A DNA stretch of 64,000 nucleotides from Streptomyces sp. TLI_105 (GTDB taxonomy: Bacteria; Actinomycetota; Actinomycetes; Streptomycetales; Streptomycetaceae). The translations under genes were made by a program, and so were the position numbers. Under the pieces are notes generated by a model. The model saw only the letters and a list, made by a program, of their open reading frames with translations. It made no database searches and was not told the DNA's origin. The stretch covers positions 3,798,501-3,862,500 of the forward strand of contig NZ_FNSM01000001.1 of the NCBI RefSeq assembly GCF_900105415.1, read 5' to 3'. This document shows, piece after piece, positions 4,134 to 64,000 of the stretch. Each line of letters opens with the position of its first letter. Position 1 is the stretch's first letter.

Positions 4134-5579
4134 ATGCCCACCGCGCCTTCCAGCCCCCGCCTCGCCCTCGGCGTCCTCGCCACCGGCATGCTGATGACGG
4201 TCCTCGACGGCAGCATCGTCACCGTCGCCATGCCCGCCATCCAGGGTGACCTCGGCTTCACCCCCGTCGGCCTCAGCTGGGTCGTCAACGCCTACCTGAT
4301 CGCCTTCGGCTCGCTCCTCCTCCTCGCCGGCCGGCTCGGCGACCTCGTCGGCCGCAAGCGGATGTTCCTCGCGGGCACCGGCGTCTTCACCGCCGCCTCG
4401 GTCCTCGCCGGCGTCGCCGCCTCCCCCGCCGTCCTCATCGCCGCCCGCTTCCTCCAGGGCGTCGGCAGCGCGACGGCCTCCGCCGTGGGGCTCGGCATCC
4501 TCGTCACCCTCTTCACCGAACCCCGCGAACGCGCCCGCGCCATCGCCGTGTTCAGCTTCACCGGCGCCGCCGGCGCCTCCCTCGGCCAGGTCCTCGGCGG
4601 CGTCCTCACCGACGCCCTCGCCTGGAACTGGATCTTCTTCATCAACCTGCCCATCGGCGCCGCCACCGTCCTCGTCGCCCTCCGCGCCCTCCCCGCCGAC
4701 CGCAGCCTCGGACTGAAGGCGGGCGCCGACGTCACCGGGGCACTGCTGGTGACCGCCGGACTCATGGCCGGGATCTACGCCGTCGTCAAGATCGAGGACT
4801 ACGGGGCCGGTTCGGCACACACCCTCGGCTTCGGGGCCCTCGCCCTCGCCCTCCTGGCCGGCTTCCTGCTCCGTCAGGCGAAGGCCGCGAATCCCCTCAT
4901 GCCGCTGCGGATCCTCCGCTCCCGCAGCGTCGCCGGCGCGAACGCCGTCCAGATGCTGATGGTCGCCGCGCTCTTCTCCTTCCAGGTCCTCGTCGCCCTC
5001 TACCTGCAGAAGGTCCTCGGGTACGGGGCCGCCGAGACCGGCCTCGCGATGCTGCCCGCCGCGCTCGTCATCGGCGCCGTCTCGCTCGGCGTCTCGGCGC
5101 CCCTCATCGCCCGCTTCGGCGAGCGGAACGTCCTGCTCACCGGCCTCGTCCTGCTCGTCGGCGTCCTCGGTCTGCTGGCCCGCGTCCCCGTCCACGCCTC
5201 GTATGCCACCGACCTGCTCCCCGTGATGCTGCTCGCCGCCGGCTTCGGCCTCGCGCTCCCCTCCCTCACCGCGCTCGCCATGTCCGGCGCGCGGGAGGAG
5301 GACGCCGGCCTGGCCTCCGGCGTCTTCAACACCACCCAGCAGATCGGCATGGCCCTCGGCGTCGCGGTCCTCTCCACCCTCGCCGCCGCCCGCACCGAGT
5401 CCCTCACGGCCGCCGGCAGTCCCGAGCCCGAGGCGCTGACGGGCGGCTACCACCTCGCCTTCGGCGTCGGCGCCGGTCTCCTCCTCCTCGCCCTGGCCGT
5501 CGCCCTCACCGTCCTGCGCCCGACCGCCGCCGCCGGGAAGCCCCGGCAGAAGACCGAGCGGATGACGATGGCGGCATGA
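4134..5579 (+). CDS. MFS drug:H+ antiporter, DHA2 (14-TM) family
   Basis: A 481-residue integral membrane transporter. TM1 carries the DHA2 motif LDGSIVTVAMPAI and the adjacent SWVVNAYLIAFGSLLLLAGRLGD segment includes the loop 2-3 motif GRLGDLVGRKRMF. Motif C-like GxxxGxxxGG residues (GAAGASLGQVLGG) occur near residue 140. About 14 hydrophobic segments can be counted, with C-terminal KPRQKTERMTMAA in the cytoplasm. It probably exports hydrophobic drugs or secondary metabolites by proton antiport. The adjacent MarR gene and operator suggest inducible repression. Its stop codon overlaps the ATG of a WYL-regulator remnant. Confidence 0.92.
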   Translation: MPTAPSSPRLALGVLATGMLMTVLDGSIVTVAMPAIQGDLGFTPVGLSWVVNAYLIAFGSLLLLAGRLGDLVGRKRMFLAGTGVFTAASVLAGVAASPAVLIAARFLQGVGSATASAVGLGILVTLFTEPRERARAIAVFSFTGAAGASLGQVLGGVLTDALAWNWIFFINLPIGAATVLVALRALPADRSLGLKAGADVTGALLVTAGLMAGIYAVVKIEDYGAGSAHTLGFGALALALLAGFLLRQAKAANPLMPLRILRSRSVAGANAVQMLMVAALFSFQVLVALYLQKVLGYGAAETGLAMLPAALVIGAVSLGVSAPLIARFGERNVLLTGLVLLVGVLGLLARVPVHASYATDLLPVMLLAAGFGLALPSLTALAMSGAREEDAGLASGVFNTTQQIGMALGVAVLSTLAAARTESLTAAGSPEPEALTGGYHLAFGVGAGLLLLALAVALTVLRPTAAAGKPRQKTERMTMAA

Positions 5580-5660
5580 GAGCCGACCGACTCGTCGCCG
5601 CACTGTTCTTCCTCCAGACGCGGCAGCGGGTCACCGCCGCCGAACTCACCGAGCTGTACG
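5576..5660 (+). pseudogene. Truncated WYL-domain regulator (N-terminal fragment only)
   Basis: An ATG overlapping the exporter stop (ATGA) opens a frame reading MRADRLVAALFFLQTRQ then RVTAAELTEL. This is the near-invariant N-terminus of Streptomyces helix-turn-helix/WYL regulators. Those proteins normally run for more than 300 residues, beginning with a DeoR-like helix-turn-helix. Here the similarity ends after about 27 codons and the frame runs into the antisense 3' end of the convergent helicase gene, stopping at 5731. The helicase stop codon (5646-5648) lies inside the remnant, which points to a deletion that fused the two genes tail to tail. Spontaneous reading as a functional protein is very unlikely. 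Confidence 0.7.
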
Positions 5661-7631
5661 GGGAGTCGGCGCCAGGAACTCCGGCAGCTCCGCCTCGTGC
5701 ACCAGCGCGAGGCGCGACACCGCCCGGGTGAGCACCACGTACAGCCGGTTCAGGCCGCGCGCCTCGGCGGCCACGATCGCGGCCGGTTCGACGACCACCA
5801 CGTGGTCGAACTCCAGGCCCTTGACGAGGGTCGCGGGCAGCACGGTCACCCGTTCCCCGCACCCCCTCACCTCTTCGGCCACCGCGTCGACGAGGTGGTC
5901 GGCCGTGACGACCCCCACCGAGCCCTCCTCCGCGAGCGCGGCCCGCACGGCCTCGCGGGCCCCGGCGGCCAGGTCCGCCGTCCGGTGGACCGTCACCTCG
6001 CCGTCCCCGCGCACCGAACGCCCGGCGGGCACGTCGGCGCCGAGCCTCGGCAGGAGCCGGTTGGCGAGGTCGACGATCGCCGCCGGCACCCGGTAGCCGA
6101 GGGTCAGCGGCACGACCGGCGTCCCCGGCTTGCCCAGGTGCGCCAGCTGCTCGTCCCAGTCGCGGGCCGCCCACGGGGTGGTGCCCTGCGCGAGGTCCCC
6201 GAGGACGGTGAGCGAGCCGAACTCGGTGCGGCGGGCGATGGCCCGGCACTGCATGGGCGAGAGGTCCTGGGCCTCGTCGACGACGACGTGCCCGTAGCTC
6301 TCGGGGCGTTCGATCAGGCCGGCGAGCTCGTCGAGGAGGACGAGGTCGGCGGCGGTCCAGCGCGCCGAGCGGTACGAGCGGGGCGGGCGCGACCAGCGGA
6401 TCGCGGCGAGCTCGTCCTCGGTGAGAGCGGGATCGGCCGGATCGGTCAGGACCTCCGCGAGGACCTCCTCCGGTGTCGTCCTCGGCCAGCACCGGTCGAG
6501 GAACGCCGTCACCGCCCGCGCCCGCTCGATCCGCCGCGCCCAGGCCGCGCCCATGGGTCCCGAGCGGCGTTCGGCCCGGAGCTGGAGGGCCCGGACGACG
6601 CGGGCCCGGACCCGTTCGCGGCCGGTCGCGTAGGGCGGGGCCTCCGCCCGTACCGCCGAGACGATCGCGGCGAGCTCCGCCGCCCGGAGCCGCCAGTGGT
6701 ACGAGCCGTCGGGGACGGTCAGGTCCTCCGCCGGGGCCGGGTCGACCCTGCCGTACAGCGCGCGGTGCAGCAGCTCCGCCATGCGGGCGTCGTGCTTGAC
6801 CCGGGCCGCCGCCTCGTCGTCCTCGGCCCGGACCGGGTGGCGGGCGATCTCGTCGTCGAGGGTGGCCTGCCGGATCCCGGTCTCGCCGAGCGAGGGCAGC
6901 ACTTCGGCGATGTAGGAGAGGAAGGCCCGGTGGGGGCCGAGGACGAGGAGGCCGGAGCGGCGGATCCGCTGCGGGTGCGTGTAGAGGAGGTACGCGGCCC
7001 GGTGCAGGCCCACGGCGGTCTTGCCGGTGCCGGGGGCGCCCTGCACGCACAGGGAGGCGGCCGGCTCGGAGCGTACGAGGTCGTCCTGTTCGGGCTGGAT
7101 GGTGGCGGCGATGTCCCGCATGGGGCCGACCCGGGGGCGCTCGATCTCCCCGGCGAGAAGGGCGCTGACCGTCCCCGTCCCGCCGTCCGTGAGGCGTTCG
7201 TCCTCCAGGGCGGTCAGGTCCTCGGTCGCGCCCGCGCTGTTCGGGGCCCAGCCGAAGCGGCGGCGGCGCAGGACGCCCTGCGGGTCGTGCGCGCCGGCCT
7301 GGTAGTAGGCGCGGGAGACGGGCGCGCGCCAGTCGACGACGAGCGGCGGGGAGGCGGGGTGCTCGGCGATCCGGCGGCGGCCGATGTGGTGGACCTGGCC
7401 GTCCTCGCGGTCTAGGCGGCCGAAGAACAGCGGTCCGGGCGGCTGTTCGCCCATCTCCTTGGCGCGGCTGCGCAGGTGGTAGCCGAGCGCCTCGGCGTCG
7501 GCACCGGAGGCGGCGACGTCCTCGCCGGTGACGACCTGCTCGGCCACGTCCTCGGTCATGCGGATCAGGGCGGCGCGGCAGGCGTCGTGGTGGGAGCGTT
7601 CACGGGCGAGCTCAAGGTCCAGTGACGTCAT
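5646..7631 (-). CDS. HelD/HelR-like superfamily 1 helicase acting on RNA polymerase
   Basis: A 661-residue UvrD-like ATPase. The N-terminal 70 residues (ELARERSHHDACRAALIRM) are a coiled-coil arm as in HelD. Walker A is VQGAPGTGKTAVGLHRAAYLLY near residue 195, Walker B is VVVDEAQDLSPMQ near 455, and later motifs include GDLAQGT and LVKGLEFDHVVVVEP plus the terminal YVVLTRAV motif VI. HelD-class proteins remodel stalled RNA polymerase, and the HelR branch in actinobacteria displaces rifamycins; that is family knowledge. The last residues (about TPRTAR) are encoded by DNA belonging to a truncated WYL gene, so the C-terminus may have been altered. No rifamycin-associated 19-bp element is seen upstream; instead a TetR-type palindrome lies there. 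Confidence 0.88.
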   Translation of the reverse strand: MTSLDLELARERSHHDACRAALIRMTEDVAEQVVTGEDVAASGADAEALGYHLRSRAKEMGEQPPGPLFFGRLDREDGQVHHIGRRRIAEHPASPPLVVDWRAPVSRAYYQAGAHDPQGVLRRRRFGWAPNSAGATEDLTALEDERLTDGGTGTVSALLAGEIERPRVGPMRDIAATIQPEQDDLVRSEPAASLCVQGAPGTGKTAVGLHRAAYLLYTHPQRIRRSGLLVLGPHRAFLSYIAEVLPSLGETGIRQATLDDEIARHPVRAEDDEAAARVKHDARMAELLHRALYGRVDPAPAEDLTVPDGSYHWRLRAAELAAIVSAVRAEAPPYATGRERVRARVVRALQLRAERRSGPMGAAWARRIERARAVTAFLDRCWPRTTPEEVLAEVLTDPADPALTEDELAAIRWSRPPRSYRSARWTAADLVLLDELAGLIERPESYGHVVVDEAQDLSPMQCRAIARRTEFGSLTVLGDLAQGTTPWAARDWDEQLAHLGKPGTPVVPLTLGYRVPAAIVDLANRLLPRLGADVPAGRSVRGDGEVTVHRTADLAAGAREAVRAALAEEGSVGVVTADHLVDAVAEEVRGCGERVTVLPATLVKGLEFDHVVVVEPAAIVAAEARGLNRLYVVLTRAVSRLALVHEAELPEFLAPTPRTAR

Positions 7632-49939: not shown

Positions 49940-50971
49940 TCAGGCCTGCGGAAGATGGGTGGGCAGCGCCGCCGCGCCCTCCTGGGTGACCCGGGTGGCG
50001 CCGAAGTAGTCCGGGGTGTCGATCCGGTCGAAGCGGATCACGGCCCCGGTGCGCGGGGCGTCGATCATGTAGCCGCCGCCGACGTAGATGCCGACGTGCC
50101 GGATGGCCCGGGAGTTGGTCAGGTCGTCCGAGAAGAACACGAGGTCGCCCGGGAGCAGCTCGTCCCGGCTCGGGTGCGGCCCGGCGTTGTACTGGTCGTT
50201 GGCGACGCGCGGCAGCTGCACGCCGACGCTGTCGTACGCGGCCTGGGTGAGCCCGGAGCAGTCGAAGCGCCCGTTCTGCGCGGCCGTGCCCGTACCGCCC
50301 CAGAGGTACGGGGTGCCCAGCTTCTGCTGCGCGTAGTGGATGGCGGCCGCGGCCTGCTGCGAGGGCGCGACACGGCCCACCGGCCGGGCGAAGCTCTTCT
50401 CCAGGGACCGGATGATGCGGACGTAGTTCTGCGTCTCGCTGATGGGCGGCACCCCGCCGTGCCTGATGACCCGGTACGCGCCCGCGTTGTACGCGGCCAG
50501 CATGTTGTTCGCCGGATCCCCGGGGACGTCCTTCACGTAGCCGGCGAGCTCGCAGTCGTACGAGGCGGCGGACGGAATGGCGTCCTGCGGGTCCCAGATG
50601 TCCCGGTCCCCGTCCCCGTCGCCGTCGACGCCGTGCCCGGCCCAGGTGCCGGGGATGAACTGGGCGATGCCCCGGGCATCGGCCGGGGAGATCGCCCGCG
50701 GGTTCCAGCCGCTCTCCTGGTACAGCTGGGCGGCCAGCAGCGCCGGATTGATGGCGGGACAGAGATTCCCCCACCGCTGCACGAGCCCCTGGTACAGAGC
50801 GGGGACGGAGCCCTTCGCGAGGGCCACGGCACCGTTCTTGGCGCCCGCGCCGCCGGCGATGCCGGCCGCCGCGGAGTACGTGCCGACGACGAGCAGCGCG
50901 ACGAGACCGAGGCAGACCCCCAGCCCCCCACCGGCCCACAGCCAGGCCTTGCCACCCCTACGCACCGTCAA
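49940..50971 (-). CDS. Lytic transglycosylase plus NlpC/P60 endopeptidase (wall hydrolase)
   Basis: A 343-residue exported or membrane-anchored enzyme. An N-terminal helix (about 8-32, AWLWAGGGLGVCLGLVALLV) leads to an SLT-type transglycosylase domain (65-190) with catalytic Glu in LYQESGWNPRAIS and IAQFIPGTWAGHG. An NlpC/P60 peptidase follows (210-340): YLWGGTGTAAQNGRFDCSGL (catalytic Cys), HVGIYVGGGYMIDAPRTG (His). It would cut both glycan and peptide bonds of peptidoglycan. Being divergent from the type IV secretion-like operon, it is the likely VirB1-type partner that opens the wall. Confidence 0.93.
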   Translation of the reverse strand: MTVRRGGKAWLWAGGGLGVCLGLVALLVVGTYSAAAGIAGGAGAKNGAVALAKGSVPALYQGLVQRWGNLCPAINPALLAAQLYQESGWNPRAISPADARGIAQFIPGTWAGHGVDGDGDGDRDIWDPQDAIPSAASYDCELAGYVKDVPGDPANNMLAAYNAGAYRVIRHGGVPPISETQNYVRIIRSLEKSFARPVGRVAPSQQAAAAIHYAQQKLGTPYLWGGTGTAAQNGRFDCSGLTQAAYDSVGVQLPRVANDQYNAGPHPSRDELLPGDLVFFSDDLTNSRAIRHVGIYVGGGYMIDAPRTGAVIRFDRIDTPDYFGATRVTQEGAAALPTHLPQA

Positions 50972-51199
50972 CCACCCCTCGGCTCATGGCAGTACGCCCG
51001 GAAAACCAGTCTAGGCGGGCGGGTGCCGGTTCAGGGGGTGGACGAAGCGGACGGAACGGAGGTGTCCAGAAACCAGAAGTCGGAACGGACGGAGGGATCC
51101 CCGAGGCTCGCCGCATCCTCCGGCACGTCGTCCGCCTTGCGCTAGCAGCCGCCCCTTGACGCGGCCCCAAGAGTGCAACAACGACAATCATTGCCCGGA

Positions 51200-51288
51200 G
51201 TCACTCTCCGTGATACACAGAGTGACCATACGCTTCTTCGCATGGAAACCGGCCACACCACCGCAGGTCAAGACGGTCAGACCGGTCA
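51200..51288 (+). promoter_or_regulatory. Dyad and GGTCA direct repeats in the promoter region of the secretion-like operon
   Basis: The 437-base gap 50972-51408 separates the wall hydrolase from the secretion-like operon. GTCACTCT (51200-51207) is exactly complementary to AGAGTGAC (51219-51226) with an 11-base spacer. Further down GGTCA occurs at 51266, 51275 and 51284 with 9-base spacing. These are candidate regulator sites for the divergent promoters. A 56-codon frame (ATG 51242) and shorter in-frame versions (ATG 51332 or 51362) end in the TGA overlapping the next start. Confidence 0.45.
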
Positions 51289-51408
51289 AGTGTGCGGGGA
51301 TCGGGTAAAGAGAGCCGCCAAGCCGTCACACATGGGCGGTTTCATCAGCGAAGATAGGGCGATGACCCATGCCGTTCGGCAGGGGCGCACAAGTACCCAA
51401 CAGGGGCG

Positions 51409-51726
51409 GTGAGTTATATGTACCTGGCGGCCGAAAAGGGCGACATCAACACCATCATCGGTGGAATCGCCCCCAACTGGGGGCCTTTCGGGAGCCTGGG
51501 CGCCGAAGCCAAGGTGATGATCGAGGTCGTGATGGCCGTGGCCATCCTGCTCTGCCTCGGCATCGCCATCTGGGGAGCGGCCAAGCAGCGCATCGGCGCG
51601 ACCGCCCTCCGGGACACGTTCAGCGCGGAACAGGGCAAGGGCCTAATCGTCGCCGGTCTGACCGGTGTCTTCATCATCGGGTCGCTGGGGACGCTGTTCA
51701 CCATCGTGTACGGGATGGCCGTCTGA
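51409..51726 (+). CDS. Two-span membrane protein, VirB2/TrbC-pilin-like, first gene of secretion-like cluster
   Basis: A 105-residue protein from GTG 51409 (ATG 51418 also possible). A periplasmic-like N-terminus (NTIIGGIAPNWGPFGSLGAE) precedes two helices at about 35-60 (MIEVVMAVAILLCLGIAIWG) and 80-104 (GLIVAGLTGVFIIGSLGTLF) with a short charged loop (RIGATALRDTFSAEQGKG). The layout matches TrbC/VirB2-type subunits. Similarity is structural, not by motif. I believe it is cmdF-equivalent of the S. coelicolor cmd locus. Confidence 0.78.
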   Translation: MSYMYLAAEKGDINTIIGGIAPNWGPFGSLGAEAKVMIEVVMAVAILLCLGIAIWGAAKQRIGATALRDTFSAEQGKGLIVAGLTGVFIIGSLGTLFTIVYGMAV

Positions 51727-51825
51727 TCTCCCGTCGGACTCGACCTTCCTGAGAATGCGTTCCCTGATGCCCAGTCATGTTGAAGCACGGCCGTACCCGC
51801 GAACGAGTGAGGGGGCGTACCCGGC

Positions 51826-52662
51826 ATGAGTCCCGGCGACGAGCACGACAGCTTCGGCGGCGTGGGCGGCTCGGGCCAGACCCGGACCCGCCTGCCCGAG
51901 GGCAACAGCGGCGACGTCTACGGCGGCGCCCGCCGCCCCGTCCGCAGCTCCCGATCCCTCATCACGGTCGTGGGCGTGGTGGTCCTCCTCATCGCCGCGA
52001 TCGCCTTCGCCAACCGCGGCGGCGGCGAACCGGCGGACGCGGCCGGCGCCCGCTCCGGCACACCGGACAAGACCGCCCCCACCGCCGCGACGGGCGTCCG
52101 CCCGGTCACCGGCAAGAACGGCGCGATCCCCACGGGCTACAGCCACGACGACCAGGGCGCCCAGAGCGCGGCGACGAACTACGCGGTGGCGCTGGGGTCG
52201 ATCGACATGTTCCAGGCCGGTCCCCGCGAGGGCATCGTGCGCGCCATCCACGATCCCAAGATCGCGGACGACCTCGTGCGGCAGCTGAACGCCGCCTATA
52301 CGGCCGACTTCCTGGCAGGCATCGGACTCGACGCGAACGGCGCCGCCCCCTCCGGCCTGACCTTCGTCTCCCGCACGATCCCGGTCGGCACCAAGGTCCG
52401 GGACTACACCGACACCTCCGCGACCGTCGAGGTCTGGTGCACCGGTCTGGTCGGCCTCGCCGGGGCGGGCTCGACCAAGCCCGTCACGTCCACCTGGTTC
52501 ACCCTCACGGAGAAGCTCACGTGGGTCGGGGGCGACTGGCGCGTGGAGTCCTCCACCCAGAGCGAGGGCCCCACACCGGTCAACGGCGACAACCGCGCCT
52601 CCACGGCCGACGAGATCGCCGAGGCCGTCCAGGGATACGGAGGATTCACCTATGCCCGCTAG
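51826..52662 (+). CDS. VirB8/TcpC-like single-span protein of the secretion-like cluster
   Basis: A 278-residue protein. Residues 1-40 are disordered (GGSGQTRTRLPEGNSGDVYG); a membrane helix follows at 44-64 (SLITVVGVVVLLIAAIAFAN). The extracytoplasmic domain (110-270) has helix-then-sheet segments (SAATNYAVALGSIDMFQAGP, AAYTADFLAGIGLDANGA, VEVWCTGLVGLAGAGSTK, TEKLTWVGGDWRVESST) that fit the NTF2-like fold of VirB8-type proteins. It overlaps the next gene by 11 bases. Function inferred from position and topology. Confidence 0.78.
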   Translation: MSPGDEHDSFGGVGGSGQTRTRLPEGNSGDVYGGARRPVRSSRSLITVVGVVVLLIAAIAFANRGGGEPADAAGARSGTPDKTAPTAATGVRPVTGKNGAIPTGYSHDDQGAQSAATNYAVALGSIDMFQAGPREGIVRAIHDPKIADDLVRQLNAAYTADFLAGIGLDANGAAPSGLTFVSRTIPVGTKVRDYTDTSATVEVWCTGLVGLAGAGSTKPVTSTWFTLTEKLTWVGGDWRVESSTQSEGPTPVNGDNRASTADEIAEAVQGYGGFTYAR

Positions 52663-53977
52663 CCGAAGTCTGGCGGGTCGCGCGACGGCCGCACTCGCCG
52701 TCGCCTTCCTCAGCGCACCGCTCCTGCTCGCCTCCGACGCCCAGGCGGCGCCCACGCCGACCCCGTCGGGCCCGACGCCGTCCCCGAGCGCCGCCGACAA
52801 CCCCTGCCGCCTCATCGTGGGGCAGGCACGAGACCTCTGCGAGAAGGGCCAGACGGGCGGCGGAGCCGACAAGACCCCCGTCACCGACCCCACCACCGCC
52901 CTGGACCCCCTCACCTCCCTCTCCCGCGGCTTCGCCGACGCCGCCATCAAGGTCATCGACGAGCTCTCCAAGGCCGTCAAGGCGACCGCCGACGTCGACT
53001 TCACCAACATGCAGTTCCTCGGCCGCTACGCGGTCGTCTTCGCCGCCGCCACCTTCCTCACCCTCCTCCTCTGGCTCCTCGCCGTCGCCAAGCGGGCCGT
53101 CCGCGGCGTCCCCCTCACCACGGCCCTCTCGGAGGCCATCGGCTTCCTCTGGCTGACGGTCCTCGCCTCCGCGTTCACGCCCCTGATCCTCTACACCGTC
53201 GTCAACGCCACCGACGCCATCACCGAGGTCATCGCCTCCGGCACGGGCCAGCAGACCGACATCTTCTTCGGCAGCTTCAAGGAGGCCCTCCAGAAGGGCG
53301 ACAGCATCGGTGGCGGCCCCATCATGCTGATCATCGTGTCCCTGGTGACCGTCCTCGCCGCCGGCGTCCTCTACCTGGAGCTGTTCCTCCGCGCCGTCCT
53401 GCTGTACGTCGGCGCGCTCCTCGGCGTCGTCGTCTACTCCGGCCTCGTCGACAAGAACATGTGGGGCCACGTCCGCCGCTGGGCCGGCATCATGATCGCG
53501 ATCATCCTGGTCAAACCGGTCATCGTGATCGTCCTCGGCCTGGCCGGCGCGCTCTCCTCCGGCACCGGCCCCGACTCGGTCTCCGCCGTCGTGTCCGGCC
53601 TGTCGATCATCCTGCTGGCCATCTTCGCCTCCGCGATGATCTACCGCTTCGTCCCCGGCTTCGGCGACGAGATCGCCGCCTCCCGCAACAACCGCCTCCA
53701 CCGCGCCGGCGAGAACGCGGCCGCGGCCGTCATCTCCTCCCCCGCGTCCCTCGTCTCCCAGGGCATCAAGACCCACAGCACCCGCGACAGCGGCGGCGGC
53801 CAGTCCCAGGGCTCCGCGCCCCGCCCCGCCAACCCCGTCTCCGGCGGCATGGCCGCGCACAGCAGCCGCGGCGGAGGCGGCGGCACCGGCGGCGCGACGC
53901 CCCCGCCCCGTAGCAGCAGTCCCACCGCGGGTACCCCGCACAGCAACCGCAAGAACTCTGGAGGTGCAGGGCGTTGA
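52652..53977 (+). CDS. Polytopic membrane protein, VirB6/TrbL-like, of secretion-like cluster
   Basis: A 441-residue protein with a cleavable or anchoring signal (LAVAFLSAPLLLASDAQAAP), a Pro/Thr spacer and a Cys pair (NPCRLIVGQARDLCEKG), then six to seven membrane helices between 115 and 355 (FLGRYAVVFAAATFLTLLLW, SEAIGFLWLTVLASAFTPLI, MLIIVSLVTVLAAGVLYLEL and others). The 90-residue cytoplasmic tail is Ser/Gly/Asn/Pro-rich. It probably forms the inner-membrane channel. Its TGA overlaps the TTG start of the next gene. Confidence 0.8.
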   Translation: MPASRSLAGRATAALAVAFLSAPLLLASDAQAAPTPTPSGPTPSPSAADNPCRLIVGQARDLCEKGQTGGGADKTPVTDPTTALDPLTSLSRGFADAAIKVIDELSKAVKATADVDFTNMQFLGRYAVVFAAATFLTLLLWLLAVAKRAVRGVPLTTALSEAIGFLWLTVLASAFTPLILYTVVNATDAITEVIASGTGQQTDIFFGSFKEALQKGDSIGGGPIMLIIVSLVTVLAAGVLYLELFLRAVLLYVGALLGVVVYSGLVDKNMWGHVRRWAGIMIAIILVKPVIVIVLGLAGALSSGTGPDSVSAVVSGLSIILLAIFASAMIYRFVPGFGDEIAASRNNRLHRAGENAAAAVISSPASLVSQGIKTHSTRDSGGGQSQGSAPRPANPVSGGMAAHSSRGGGGGTGGATPPPRSSSPTAGTPHSNRKNSGGAGR

Positions 53978-55527
53978 CGACCCAGTCCCAGCCGGTCGCG
54001 CCCCGCCGCACGTATCTCGTCGGCCGTGCCCGGCCGAACGCGATCGTCGGCAAGAACCGCGAGACCGGCGAGATCGCCCTGATCATCGTCGGCGCCTTCC
54101 TCGGCATGATGAGCGGACTCCTCGTCCCCCTCCTCCCCCTGCGGATCGCCCTCCTCGCGGGTCTGCCCATGCTCGCGATCGCCGCCGTGTACCTCCCGTA
54201 CAAGCACCGCACCTTCTACAAGTGGTTCGAGATCAACCGCAGCTACAAGCGGATGCTCAAGCGCGGCACGACCTACCGTTCCGTCGCCCACGAGGCCGGC
54301 ACCCGCCTCGACGGCCGCGAGGTCGAGGTCGGCCCGCCCCCCGGCATCGGCAACGTCGGCTGGCTCGCCGCCCCCTTCGGCCCCGACGAGATCGCCGTCC
54401 TCCTGCACGCCGACCGCCGCACCGTCACCGCCGCCATCGAGATCGAGGGCCCCGGCGTCGGCCTGCGCGACAGCGAGGACCAGGAGGCCCTGGTCGACCG
54501 CTTCGGCACCCTCCTGAAGCACGTGGCCAACGGCGACGGCTTCGTCACCCGCCTCCAGATGCTGGCCCGCACCCTCCCCGCCGACCCCGACGCGCACGCC
54601 AAGGACGTCGGCCAGCGCGGCGACCCGCACGCGCCCGCGTGGCTCCAGGACTCGTACGACCAGCTCCAGTCGATGGTCTCCACCTCCAGCGAGCAGCACC
54701 GCGCCTACCTCGTCGCCTGCATGCACTACACCCGCGAGCTCGCCGCCGAGGCCAACGCCATGGCCCGCGCCGCCCGCCACGCCTCCGGCGCCCGCAAGCT
54801 CGACCGCGACGCCGGCCTCGCCGTCGTCATGGCCCGCGAGCTCACCGACATCTGCGCCCGCCTCGCCGAGGCCGACATCCGCGTCCGCCAGCCCCTCGGC
54901 CAGTCCCGGCTCGCCTCCCTCGTGCACTCCATGTACGACCCGGACCACCCCATCGACCACATCCAGGCCATGACGAAACGAAACGCTTGGCCCGCCGAAC
55001 TGGACGCGATGGAGCCGACGTACCTCCAGGCCAAGACCCGCGAGTCCTCCACCCGCGCCCCCTGGTGCCACGCCACCGCCTGGATCAAGGAGTGGCCGAT
55101 GACCCCGGTCGGCGTCAACTTCCTCGCCCCGCTCCTCGTCCACACCCCCGACGTCATCCGCACGGTCGCCGTCACCATGGACCTGGAGCCCACCGAGGTC
55201 GCCATCGAGCGCATGCTCACCGAGAAGACCAACGACGAGGCCGACGCCAGCCGCGCCGCCAAGATGAACCGCACGGTCGACCCGCGCGACATCGCCGCCC
55301 ACGGCCGGCTCGACCAGCGGGGTGAAGATCTCGCCAGCGGCGCGGCAGGAGTGAACCTCGTCGGGTACATCACGGTGTCGTCGCGTTCGCCCGAGGCCCT
55401 CGCCCGGGACAAGCGCACGATCAGGGCCTCCGCCGGCAAGTCGTATCTGAAGCTGGAGTGGTGCGACCGCGAGCACCACCGGGCCTTTGTGAACACCTTG
55501 CCGTTCGCGACCGGCATCCGCCGCTAG
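53974..55527 (+). CDS. SCO6880/PrgI-type protein: VirB3-like membrane domain fused to VirB4 N-domain-like region
   Basis: A 517-residue protein from TTG at 53974, overlapping the previous stop and preceded by GGAGGTGCAGG. Residues 1-90 hold two adjacent membrane helices (IALIIVGAFLGMMSGLLVPL, RIALLAGLPMLAIAAVYLPY) with the YKHRTFYKWFEINRSYKRML basic segment, typical of PrgI/VirB3-like proteins. The following 400 residues (LHADRRTVTAAIEIEGPGVG, HRAYLVACMHYTRELAAEAN, PVGVNFLAPLLVHTPDVIRT) have no ATPase motif and resemble a VirB4 N-terminal domain. The ATPase part would then be the next gene, so VirB4 is effectively split. Confidence 0.82.
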   Translation: MTTQSQPVAPRRTYLVGRARPNAIVGKNRETGEIALIIVGAFLGMMSGLLVPLLPLRIALLAGLPMLAIAAVYLPYKHRTFYKWFEINRSYKRMLKRGTTYRSVAHEAGTRLDGREVEVGPPPGIGNVGWLAAPFGPDEIAVLLHADRRTVTAAIEIEGPGVGLRDSEDQEALVDRFGTLLKHVANGDGFVTRLQMLARTLPADPDAHAKDVGQRGDPHAPAWLQDSYDQLQSMVSTSSEQHRAYLVACMHYTRELAAEANAMARAARHASGARKLDRDAGLAVVMARELTDICARLAEADIRVRQPLGQSRLASLVHSMYDPDHPIDHIQAMTKRNAWPAELDAMEPTYLQAKTRESSTRAPWCHATAWIKEWPMTPVGVNFLAPLLVHTPDVIRTVAVTMDLEPTEVAIERMLTEKTNDEADASRAAKMNRTVDPRDIAAHGRLDQRGEDLASGAAGVNLVGYITVSSRSPEALARDKRTIRASAGKSYLKLEWCDREHHRAFVNTLPFATGIRR

Positions 55528-55547
55528 GGCCGAAGGGGCACAGACCC

Positions 55548-56942
55548 ATGCGAGATCCGCTGTCCGTCCTCACCGAAGCCTTCACCTCCTTCCTCTTCGG
55601 GAAGGTGGAGACGACCCGCCTGCCCGTCCGCACCTCCACCGGGCAGGCCCAGGCCGTCTACCTGCCGACCGCCGCACCGGGCCTCGGCGACTCCGGCGTC
55701 ATCATCGGCCGCGAGGTCTACAGCGGAAAGGGCTACATCTACGACCCCTTCCAGCTGTACGGTCAGCAGCTCCCCGCCCCGCACTGGCTGGTCCTGGGCG
55801 AGTCCGGCAACGGAAAATCGGCCCTCGAGAAGACGTACGTGCTCCGCCAGCTCCGCTTCCGCGACCGGCAGGTCGTCGTCCTCGACGCCCAGGGCGAGGA
55901 CGGCGTCGGCGAATGGAACCTCATCGCCCAGGAGCTGGGGATAACCCCCATCCGCCTGGACCCGATGGTCGCCAACGACTCCGGGATCCGCCTCAACCCC
56001 CTGGACCCGTCGATCACCACGACGGGCCAGCTGGCCCTCCTCCGCACGATCATCGAGGTGGCGATGGGCCACGGCCTCGACGAGCGCTCCGGCTTCGCGC
56101 TCAAGGTCGCCCACGCGTACGTCACCGAGCACACCACCGACCGGCAGCCGATCCTCACCGACATCGTCGAGCGCCTGCGCCACCCGGAGGCCGAATCGGC
56201 CGAGGCGATGAACGTCGACATAGACGACGTACGGGCCTGGGGCCTGGACGTCGCCCTCGTCCTGGACCGCCTCGTCGACGGCGACCTGCGCGGCATGTTC
56301 GACGGCCCGACCACGGTCGGCATCGACCTGGACGCCCCGCTCATCGTCTTCGACCTGTCCCACATCGACCGCAACTCCATCGCCATGCCGATCCTCATGG
56401 CGATCGTCGGCGTCTGGCTGGAGCACACCTGGATCCGCCCCGACCGGAAGAAGCGCATCTTCCTGGTCGAGGAGGCCTGGCACATCATCAACAGCCCCTT
56501 CGTGGCCCAGCTGTTCCAGCGCCTCCTGAAGTTCGGCCGCCGCCTCGGCCTCTCCTTCGTCGCCGTCGTCCACCACCTCTCGGACGTCGTCGACGGAGCA
56601 GCGGCCAAAGAAGCGGCAGCGATCCTCAAGATGGCCTCCACCCGGACCATCTACGCCCAGAAGGCCGACGAGGCACGCAACACCGGCCGGGTCCTCGGCC
56701 TGCCCCGCTGGGCGGTCGAGATCATCCCGACCCTCACCCCCGGCATCGCGGTCTGGGACGTCAACGGCAACGTCCAGGTGGTCAAACACCTCATCACCGA
56801 GAAGGAACGCCCGCTCGTCTACACCGACCGCGCCATGACGGAGTCCTCCGTCACGGACCCGGAGCTGGAGTGGGAGACGGAGCAGCGGGCGATCCTCATC
56901 GAGCAGCAGATGAACGGCACTTCGCAGTCGACGGTGGCGTAG
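55548..56942 (+). CDS. VirB4-like ATPase
   Basis: A 464-residue ATPase. Walker A is WLVLGESGNGKSALEKTYV near 88, then VLDAQGEDGVGEWNLIAQEL and LNPLDPSITTTGQLALLRTI. Walker B is RIFLVEEAWHIINSPFVAQL near 305 and a sensor-like GLSFVAVVHHLSDVVDGAA. These match the C-terminal motor domain of VirB4/TraE-type secretion ATPases. It powers assembly or translocation with the SCO6880-type protein upstream. The gene is separated by 20 bases and followed immediately by the coupling-protein-like gene. Confidence 0.87.
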   Translation: MRDPLSVLTEAFTSFLFGKVETTRLPVRTSTGQAQAVYLPTAAPGLGDSGVIIGREVYSGKGYIYDPFQLYGQQLPAPHWLVLGESGNGKSALEKTYVLRQLRFRDRQVVVLDAQGEDGVGEWNLIAQELGITPIRLDPMVANDSGIRLNPLDPSITTTGQLALLRTIIEVAMGHGLDERSGFALKVAHAYVTEHTTDRQPILTDIVERLRHPEAESAEAMNVDIDDVRAWGLDVALVLDRLVDGDLRGMFDGPTTVGIDLDAPLIVFDLSHIDRNSIAMPILMAIVGVWLEHTWIRPDRKKRIFLVEEAWHIINSPFVAQLFQRLLKFGRRLGLSFVAVVHHLSDVVDGAAAKEAAAILKMASTRTIYAQKADEARNTGRVLGLPRWAVEIIPTLTPGIAVWDVNGNVQVVKHLITEKERPLVYTDRAMTESSVTDPELEWETEQRAILIEQQMNGTSQSTVA

Positions 56943-58496
56943 ATGGAACAGGCACGGAAGGGAGGCGGGGGGATCTCCGACGGGCTGCTCCTCAGCCTGT
57001 TCGCCCTCCTCCTCGGTCTCACGGTCCTGGTGTGGACGGCGACCGGCCTCGCCGGCCTCTTCGCCCACGGCGCCTGGCCGCAGGGGGTCGCCTTCGCGGG
57101 CACCCCGTCGGCCCTGCGCGCCCTGGCGACGGCCCCGACGGACCTCCCGGCCGCCTGGCCGACGACCCCGCCGGACCAGCTGTCGGGGTACGGCCTCTTC
57201 TGGGGCCTGGTGATCGGCGAGGCGATGATCCTGATGGTCCTCGCCGTCTTCGTCCTCGGCACCCTGGCCCGCTGGCGCGCGGTCCGCGCGAACCGAAAGA
57301 CGGGGACGTACGAAGGGACGCCCGTACGGAAGGACGCGGAGGTACGGAAGGACGCGGAGGTACGGCACTCCCCGGCCGCCCAGGAGGTGCCCCCCGCTCC
57401 TCCGGCCCCGCGCCGCCCGAGGGAAGAGCGCCCACCGGAGCCCACCCCACCACCGACTCCCGCGCCGACCCCGGCGCCGGCCGCGGTGGAGGCCCCGCCC
57501 GCCACCGCGGCCACCGCCTTTGTCCCCATAGCCACCCCCCGCACCGTCTACGGCCCCCCGGAGACCCGCCGCCCGGCCGCCGTGCAGGCGATCCTGGACG
57601 CCGAGGGCCCGGTCCTGGTCGTCACCTCCGACCCCGCCGTCTGGTCCTCCACCAAGGACGCGCGCGGCAAACTCGGCCCGGTCCTGGTGCACGACCCCGG
57701 CCACCTCTGCGACACCCCCGCCCGGCTCCACTGGTCACCGTCCGAGCGCTGCGAGGACCCGGCGGTGGCGCAGGAACGCGCGATCGCCCTGCTCGCCCCC
57801 GTACGCCCGCACTCCCGCCTCGACGCGGCCACCGCCGACACCGCGGAGACGCTCCTGCGCTGCTGGCTGCACGCCGCCGCAGTCGACGGCCGCCCCTTCC
57901 GACAGGTCCACCGCTGGGCGCAGGGCGCGGGCGCCCACGAGCCCGTACGCATCCTCCGCAGCCACCCGAAGGCCGCCTCGGGCCTGGCGGGCCTCCTGGA
58001 ATCGGCGCTCACCGCTCACCCCGAAAGCCGCCGCCTGGCACAGGAACTGACGGCACGTGCGCTCGGGGCCCTCTCCTCGATCCACATCAGGGAGGCATGC
58101 GTACCGAATCGAACTGATTCGCTGGCACTCGCATCTTTCCTCGCCGAAGGGGGCACGCTCTATGTGGTGGGCGAGGCGATCGAGGATCCCCGCACCCACC
58201 CCGGCGCGATGCCGCTCCTCACGGCCCTCGCCGCAAGCGTGGTCGAGCACGGCCGCCGCATGGCCGCACGGTCATCCGACGGTCGGCTCGACCCACCACT
58301 GACCCTCGTCCTCGACGACGTGGCCGCCGTGGCCCCCCTCCCCCAGCTCCCGGACCTCCTGGCGACGGGCCACACCCATGGCCTCCCGACCCTGGCCCTG
58401 ATGCGCTCGGAGGAACAGGCAAGGTCCCGCTGGCCCGTCCTAGGCAATCGTTCCGCTGGGGCGGAACGGGTGGGCACAACGGAACGGCACCCCTAG
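56943..58496 (+). CDS. VirD4/TraG-like membrane protein lacking a Walker A motif
   Basis: A 517-residue protein. Two N-terminal membrane helices (LLLSLFALLLGLTVLVWTAT, GLFWGLVIGEAMILMVLAVF) and a Pro-rich linker with a tandem RKDAEV repeat precede a soluble domain (185-500). That domain has the order of a VirD4/TraG motor: GPVLVVTSDPAVWSSTKDAR where Walker A would be, and LTLVLDDVAAVAPLPQLPDL like Walker B with ALMRSEEQARSRWP. The P-loop Gly-Lys-Thr/Ser is absent, so it may not hydrolyse ATP. The last about 18 residues (LGNRSAGAERVGTTERHP) are encoded by the palindromic repeat, so the natural C-terminus was probably replaced. Confidence 0.8.
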   Translation: MEQARKGGGGISDGLLLSLFALLLGLTVLVWTATGLAGLFAHGAWPQGVAFAGTPSALRALATAPTDLPAAWPTTPPDQLSGYGLFWGLVIGEAMILMVLAVFVLGTLARWRAVRANRKTGTYEGTPVRKDAEVRKDAEVRHSPAAQEVPPAPPAPRRPREERPPEPTPPPTPAPTPAPAAVEAPPATAATAFVPIATPRTVYGPPETRRPAAVQAILDAEGPVLVVTSDPAVWSSTKDARGKLGPVLVHDPGHLCDTPARLHWSPSERCEDPAVAQERAIALLAPVRPHSRLDAATADTAETLLRCWLHAAAVDGRPFRQVHRWAQGAGAHEPVRILRSHPKAASGLAGLLESALTAHPESRRLAQELTARALGALSSIHIREACVPNRTDSLALASFLAEGGTLYVVGEAIEDPRTHPGAMPLLTALAASVVEHGRRMAARSSDGRLDPPLTLVLDDVAAVAPLPQLPDLLATGHTHGLPTLALMRSEEQARSRWPVLGNRSAGAERVGTTERHP

Positions 58497-62880: not shown

Positions 62881-62999
62881 GTTCGGCGGTGTCCTACTCT
62901 CCCACAGGGTCCCCCCTGCAGTACCATCGGCGCTGAAAGGCTTAGCTTCCGGGTTCGGAATGTAACCGGGCGTTTCCCTAACGCTATGACCACCGAAAC
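62881..62999 (-). rRNA. rrf: 5S ribosomal RNA
   Basis: The minus strand reads GTTTCGGTGGTCATAGCG at its 5' end, then CCGGTTACATTCCGAACCCG and GCTAAGCCTTTCAGCGCCGA, ending ACACCGCCGAAC. It has the complementary 5'/3' termini and the conserved loop sequences of actinobacterial 5S rRNA. Length about 119 bases. It follows the 23S gene by about 75 bases, as in Streptomyces rrn operons. Confidence 0.95.
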
Positions 63000-63077
63000 T
63001 CTATGAAGTTCACGAACCGCCGCACCCCGCAGGGGGCGTGTTCGTTGCTTCAGAACTAACACAGTGGACGCGAGCAA

Positions 63078-64000
<923 letters not shown>

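Follow-up and report, generated by a model that had tools for sequence, protein, structure and literature searches.

The closest described relative of the locus studied here is the cmdABCDEF operon of Streptomyces coelicolor (SCO4126–4131), published as a set of membrane proteins for differentiation with a VirB4-like CmdB, for which a type IV-like channel was proposed (Xie et al. 2009, PMC2782261). We analysed a window of 64,000 nucleotides from Streptomyces sp. TLI_105 (bases 3798501–3862500 of an 8.587-Mb contig; the genome is 8.88 Mb in two contigs and estimated to be 100% complete). Its positions 49940–58496 hold the same operon in the same order: a divergent hydrolase with SLT and NlpC/P60 domains, followed by six genes read in one direction, with overlapping, abutting or closely spaced ends. 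All seven genes that a first-pass annotation had placed there are present, and its naming of the S. coelicolor operon as the orthologous locus was right. The gene order fits SCO4131–4126, the published cmdB primers encode the Walker A stretch of the window protein, and SCO6880, likened to cmdC (PMC2782261), also names the NCBIfam family of the window's CmdC. Letters of the remaining cmd genes were assigned from gene order. The neighbouring hydrolase gene corresponds to SCO4132, named tgdA (PMC6585502).

Homologous clusters are known from plasmids. Rothia amarae p1 (NZ_CP062957) and a 44-kb plasmid of Kitasatospora sp. NBC_01302 (NZ_CP108407) carry a wall hydrolase, small and membrane proteins, an SCO6880-family protein, a separate VirB4 motor gene and a TraG-type gene in similar order. 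However, these plasmids also encode a MobF relaxase and a VirD4 whose Walker A is intact, both of which cmd lacks. Bordetella Ptl and Brucella VirB are type IV secretion systems (T4SSs) that are not known to have a VirD4 and that secrete pathogen effectors. T4SSs without VirD4 (PMC12857230) resemble cmd in having no active coupling protein in the locus, whereas cmd is a developmental core locus that retains a VirD4 relic. The plasmid SLP2 (NC_004933, bases 1–40000 of 50410) has an SLT/C40 hydrolase and VirB4-type genes, with no relaxase or VirD4 annotated in this part; it differs from cmd in that an FtsK/TraB-type ATPase adjoins its cluster, which is needed for plasmid transfer (PMC2782261). 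The operon, its phenotype, the membrane location of CmdB, its likeness to VirB4 and the channel idea were already published in 2009. Our literature search, with subscription journals outside its reach, found nothing that describes CmdC as the VirB4 N-half, CmdA as a decaying VirD4, SCO5677 as a TrwB-fold ATPase or a link to EccE.

We suggest that the machine encoded in the window probably descends from a conjugative T4SS of actinobacteria, lacks a relaxase and is fixed in the chromosome, with SCO5677 as candidate coupler. The domesticated, chromosomal character proposed by the first-pass annotation is borne out by distribution. A CmdB match (E ≤ 0.001) was found in 101 of 101 Streptomycetaceae genomes from 17 genera, identity being 83–96% once the window itself and two broken copies are set aside (G316 is split in two, and G357, 76% complete, contains stops). 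The match is also in two pieces in G230, another Streptomyces. Class-wide, 134 of 296 genomes match CmdB (142 of those without a match are not individually named). The best match outside the family is 79% identical (G007, an assembly of 970 contigs with 6% contamination) and the next ∼36%; second copies inside Streptomycetaceae reach 50%. We fetched 68 Streptomycetaceae loci, 30 from Streptomyces and 38 hand-picked from other genera, ten of the latter being extra Kitasatospora-type loci. CmdC and CmdB are present in all 68, the VirB8-like and VirB6-like genes in 67 each, the VirB2-like gene in 64, the hydrolase in 57 and CmdA in 56, some misses being contig ends. Such conservation is far above chance. 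Gene order is also kept, except in L200 (genome G312). In this Yinghuangia-type locus no VirB8- or VirB6-like gene could be detected in the interval 5265–5893, which separates the VirB2-like gene from CmdC, and its stretch yielded no hydrolase either. Many draft contigs end a few kb downstream of cmd, which may be due to the rRNA operon whose end (5S and 23S, minus strand) lies at 62881–64000 of our window. The proposed search for relaxases in the rest of the genome was carried out: no TrwC (PF08751) or Relaxase (PF03432) protein was found in the whole 8.88 Mb, a search that did not extend to MobA/MobL, Rep-type relaxases, oriT or integrases.

CmdA had been described as a VirD4-like protein without an ATP site. 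The loss of the site holds, but the description was incomplete, as the protein is also shortened at its C-terminus, gives no sporulation phenotype when deleted in S. coelicolor, and is missing or truncated in four sister genera of Streptomyces. CmdA aligns along its length, transmembrane (TM) head included, with nine VirD4s whose P-loop is intact (hhalign probability 100, E 2.9e–50, 459 columns). At the P-loop site the window protein reads GPPETRRP, versus GPPRSGKG, APPREGKT, GPMGSGKT and similar in the intact VirD4s. GK[TSG] is found at the aligned site in 16 of 16 intact comparators (six ending GKG rather than GK[ST]) versus none of the 30 readable among 31 Streptomyces loci (window included), none of the 68 readable among 80 named Streptomyces loci (the best 80 of at least 587, hence close relatives of the window) and none of the 13 readable among 16 other-genus loci with a CmdA match. 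An ATP site hidden elsewhere in the open reading frame (ORF) is ruled out by the absence of a strict Walker A from the ORF after CmdB (0/29 and 0/67 ORFs); the looser GK[STG] occurs in 1/29 and 4/67, away from the P-loop position. Taking the longest ORF downstream of CmdB went wrong in at least L165, L168 and L177, and the other-genus results use alignment searches. Half-decayed P-loops (e.g. SDKGKR) are seen in other-genus CmdA proteins (L171, L173, L175, L176, L179) and look as if separate lineages had eroded one lost site. Walker B is followed by 54–76 residues in 22 CmdA proteins versus 164–193 in seven of nine comparators (the other two were unparsed). A second measure gave 46–122 residues over 102 CmdA proteins and 158 in the one comparator parsed.

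The losses outside Streptomyces, in loci whose genus names are inferred, differ in extent. Five queries gave no CmdA match in any of the 11 Kitasatospora-type loci (L177, L190–L199), nor in L178, which has masked bases further downstream. In Yinghuangia L165 and Embleya L168 CmdA is reduced to the TM head, in ORFs of 141 and 158 amino acids. In two further Yinghuangia and two Embleya loci (L200–L203) each of the five queries found a short match, 14–25% at most; these loci likely hold CmdA stubs, a reading drawn from matches of a kind that the full-length CmdA of L167 gave as well (just 15%). Within Streptomyces, omega (the ratio of nonsynonymous to synonymous divergence) is 0.29–0.39 for CmdA versus 0.03–0.10 for CmdB (11 comparisons; Nei-Gojobori, crude at this GC). 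Hence, the relic is still constrained in this genus, and a pseudogene is ruled out there, though CmdA is lost in some other genera. Of the 80 named loci, 13 lack an ORF of 300 amino acids after CmdB, ten of them being short of sequence; L093, L113 and L140 do have sequence downstream of CmdB with no such ORF, and their CmdA may be broken. Deletion of cmdA in S. coelicolor gave no apparent difference in sporulation, unlike the other cmd deletions (PMC2782261), and a transposon screen names cmdBCDEF but, in the passages on its hits, not cmdA (PMC6585502). A TraG-type VirD4 elsewhere in our genome is ruled out, as CmdA is the sole TraG-D_C match.

An intact coupling-type fold is encoded at a distance. 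A probable SCO5677 orthologue, ∼1.46 Mb from the locus, combines the TrwB ATPase fold with an intact Walker A and an N-terminal TM region. Such an unlinked ATPase accompanies the cmd set in the sampled Streptomycetaceae. TrwB is its closest PDB fold, spanning model residues 6–430, and the model shows TrwB-, HerA- and FtsK-type motor folds. Mutants of SCO5677, tgdA and cmdBCDEF have a common actinorhodin, RED and aerial-hypha phenotype (PMC6585502). From this phenotype and the modelled fold, SCO5677 would be the best candidate for coupling substrate to Cmd. The earlier claim that VirB4 is the only ATPase is correct as far as the locus goes; for the machine as a whole it is doubtful, given an orthologue with intact Walker A and the common mutant phenotype.

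Within the locus, the working motor is CmdB. Its Walker A (GESGNGKS, Lys90) and Walker B are intact, and it matches the VirB4 structure 4ag5 (E 7e–6). Walker A is kept in 68/68 Streptomycetaceae loci and 80/80 named Streptomyces orthologues and Walker B in 68/68, broken copies being counted by the piece that matched. The S. coelicolor protein is membrane-located, and two Lys-to-Arg mutants do not complement, although instability of the mutant proteins may account for this (PMC2782261). The mutagenic primers in that paper labelled K90A and K404A encode Arg, not Ala, and the labels look swapped: it is the K404A primer that changes the lysine of Walker A (Lys90 here), and the K90A primer that changes a later one.

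The split of VirB4 across two genes had been noticed at the outset. This is right but not peculiar to the locus, as plasmid relatives with relaxases and the relatives in family f16 (see below) are split in the same way, which also rules out a frameshift or local oddity. CmdC has a head of two TM helices (possibly PrgI/VirB3-like) and the fold of the VirB4 N-terminal domain, and CmdB is the motor. Pfam PrgI was matched by 7 of 48 CmdC homologues (best E 0.011) and not by the window protein. The proposed T4SS ancestry is supported. CmdC also has the fold of EccE, a type VII secretion system (T7SS) subunit not known to have a catalytic role: of the 285 residues in chain A of 6umm, which we take to be EccE, 277 are aligned, starting at the CmdC TM head, and Pfam EccE is matched by 15 of the 48 homologues. 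However, no other ESX/T7SS domain was matched in the seven proteins (Pfam, NCBIfam). A fold common to the VirB4 N-half and ESX chains taken as EccE points to a possible link between T4SS and T7SS. The synonymous divergence (dS) of CmdC is low, 0.09–0.24 versus 0.11–0.72 for its neighbours in the same genome pairs; its high GC content at third codon positions (0.967) may partly account for this.

Table 1. Genes of the cmd locus, in window positions, with the basis of each assignment
Product	Coordinates	Strand	Basis
tgdA orthologue (SCO4132), wall hydrolase	50971-49940	-	Pfam SLT + NLPC_P60, both over cut-off
CmdF (SCO4131), 101 amino acids, two TM	51421-51726	+	VirB2/TrbC-like by size, topology and place only
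CmdE (SCO4130), one TM + C-terminal domain	51826-52662	+	VirB8-like, judged solely from topology and position
CmdD (SCO4129), six hydrophobic segments	52652-53977	+	putatively VirB6/TrbL-like; TM scan
CmdC (SCO4128), SCO6880 family	53974-55527	+	NCBIfam NF042935, 177 bits (cut-off 60)
CmdB (SCO4127), VirB4-type ATPase	55548-56942	+	Pfam AAA_10 + P-loop_TraG over cut-off
CmdA (SCO4126), degenerate VirD4/TraG, two TM	56943-58496	+	TraG-D_C 47/126 positions, under cut-off

Among the remaining components (Table 1), the tgdA orthologue, a lytic transglycosylase and NlpC/P60 wall hydrolase, has a single N-terminal TM segment and may play a VirB1-like role. Homologous plasmid clusters are adjoined by SLT and/or NlpC/P60 hydrolases, the plasmids nearest to cmd having an M23 peptidase in the hydrolase's place, and SCO4132 mutants share the phenotype of cmd mutants (PMC6585502). 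CmdF gave no family match in Pfam or NCBIfam scans, and no informative Pfam family was found among 55 homologues of the VirB8-like CmdE. Four of eight CmdD relatives weakly match TrbL or TrbL_4, all below cut-off, and the window protein itself matches neither. We regard CmdF as a putative VirB2 from size, topology and gene order, and CmdE as a putative VirB8 from topology and gene order. PDB sequence searches with VirB8-, CmdC-, CmdA- and SCO5677-like profiles returned nothing useful.

A related cluster is fixed in a second lineage, family f16 of the same class (loci L043, L044, L045, L053 and L228–L233), perhaps Frankiaceae in view of a Frankia match mentioned in PMC2782261. There, 31 of 35 genomes have a CmdB relative 88–100% identical to that of genome G085; two have a more distant one only and two none. 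VirB8-like, VirB6-like and CmdC matches adjoin the CmdB relative, and no CmdA match was found in four of four loci. The SLT and NlpC/P60 hydrolase occurs in L043 and three of nine further stretches. The cluster is flanked by NERD, glutamate-cysteine-ligase-type and sulfatase-modifying-type genes, a setting seen again in five of nine further loci, and L045 and L053 have different flanks, common to both. No MobF match was found in ten loci, in a search with a weak control that recovered only its two query plasmids. In the CmdB tree (root unknown, some long branches) f16 (support 100/100) and cmd (100/99) form separate clades with mobile homologues between them, which favours two independent fixations.

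How the machine may work can be outlined. TgdA would open the cell wall, CmdF, CmdE, CmdD and CmdC would form the membrane channel, CmdB would drive assembly or transport, and the TrwB-fold SCO5677 orthologue, not CmdA, would couple the substrate. The use in hyphal development foreseen by the first-pass annotation agrees with the published mutant phenotype (PMC2782261, PMC6585502). As to cargo, we lean, with some hesitation, to export of protein through the wall of young aerial hyphae, because the defects precede septation, no TrwC/Relaxase-type relaxase is present, and the coupling fold is compatible with protein-coupling relatives as well. On this view the actinorhodin and segregation phenotypes would arise downstream. 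Movement of double-stranded DNA between compartments, with Cmd clearing or moving chromosomes across sporulation septa as the 2009 authors suggested, seems to us a distinctly weaker candidate, although mutants show 6–8% anucleate spores and uneven DAPI (4′,6-diamidino-2-phenylindole) staining (PMC2782261) and the motor folds of SCO5677 would suit such a task. In SLP2 a homologous cluster goes together with an FtsK/TraB-type ATPase, no VirD4 or relaxase being annotated in 40 of its 50.4 kb; this is the precedent for a swapped coupling motor, and it also makes the strongest case for a DNA function. A scaffold that remodels the wall and has no substrate appears slightly less probable again. That cmd is still mobile or was recently captured is most improbable. 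Plasmids do carry a CmdB 46–49% identical in the same gene order, but universality in the family sample (101/101, one clade), the dead VirD4 and the lack of a TrwC/Relaxase-type relaxase rule out a mobile element.

Several observations weigh against SCO5677 as coupler and against a secretion channel as such. Sequence support for the VirD4 likeness of SCO5677 is moderate (hhalign probability 89, E 2.5e–6), and its link to Cmd has the shared mutant phenotype as its footing; raised actinorhodin was common in the screen, with 50 genes hit by more than one insertion (PMC6585502). Within a single family, any core gene can be expected to co-occur. An SCO5677-like gene (32–33% identity) is present in four of four tested genomes of an f17 genus without a cmd orthologue, and none was found in G007, the fragmented and partly contaminated assembly with the 79% CmdB. 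Among ten cluster-bearing f16 genomes searched, nine gave no SCO5677-like match and one a weak match (7e–4). Other remote coupling-like ATPases may exist in the genome. Deletion of the cluster left transfer of an SLP2-derived plasmid unchanged (PMC2782261, data not shown there), the Cmd channel is a proposed one, and the VirB8, VirB6 and VirB2 assignments are tentative. These points lend some weight to the same domesticated machine having CmdB as its only motor, with SCO5677 acting in an unrelated pathway that raises actinorhodin and CmdA kept as a structural remnant. CmdB is the one protein of the cluster with an ATP site, and the phenotype shows it to be required; the f16 clusters lack CmdA as well as, for the most part, an SCO5677-like partner; and some T4SSs do without VirD4 (PMC12857230). 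We nevertheless consider a CmdB-only machine unlikely, given the phenotype common to SCO5677, tgdA and cmdBCDEF and TrwB as the closest PDB fold, spanning model residues 6–430.

The combination of a dead CmdA with an intact protein of the same shape elsewhere suggests how a mating machine turned to hyphal development. More broadly, though with clear reservations, we propose that a conjugation apparatus became a core developmental secretion machine through a coupling-protein swap: the ATP site of CmdA was lost before the family radiated, CmdA is now being discarded genus by genus, and SCO5677 took over in trans. Family f16 would have fixed a relative independently without VirD4, and EccE would be a VirB3 plus VirB4 N-half that is missing its motor, a kinship that would connect type IV with type VII machines. 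If this is true, Streptomyces build their aerial hyphae with a tamed mating machine, and the developmental genes tgdA and SCO5677 belong to the cmd pathway. CmdA would then be a graded series of coupling-protein dismantling after domestication, SCO5677 would be named as the replacement motor, and EccE would be given an evolutionary identity.

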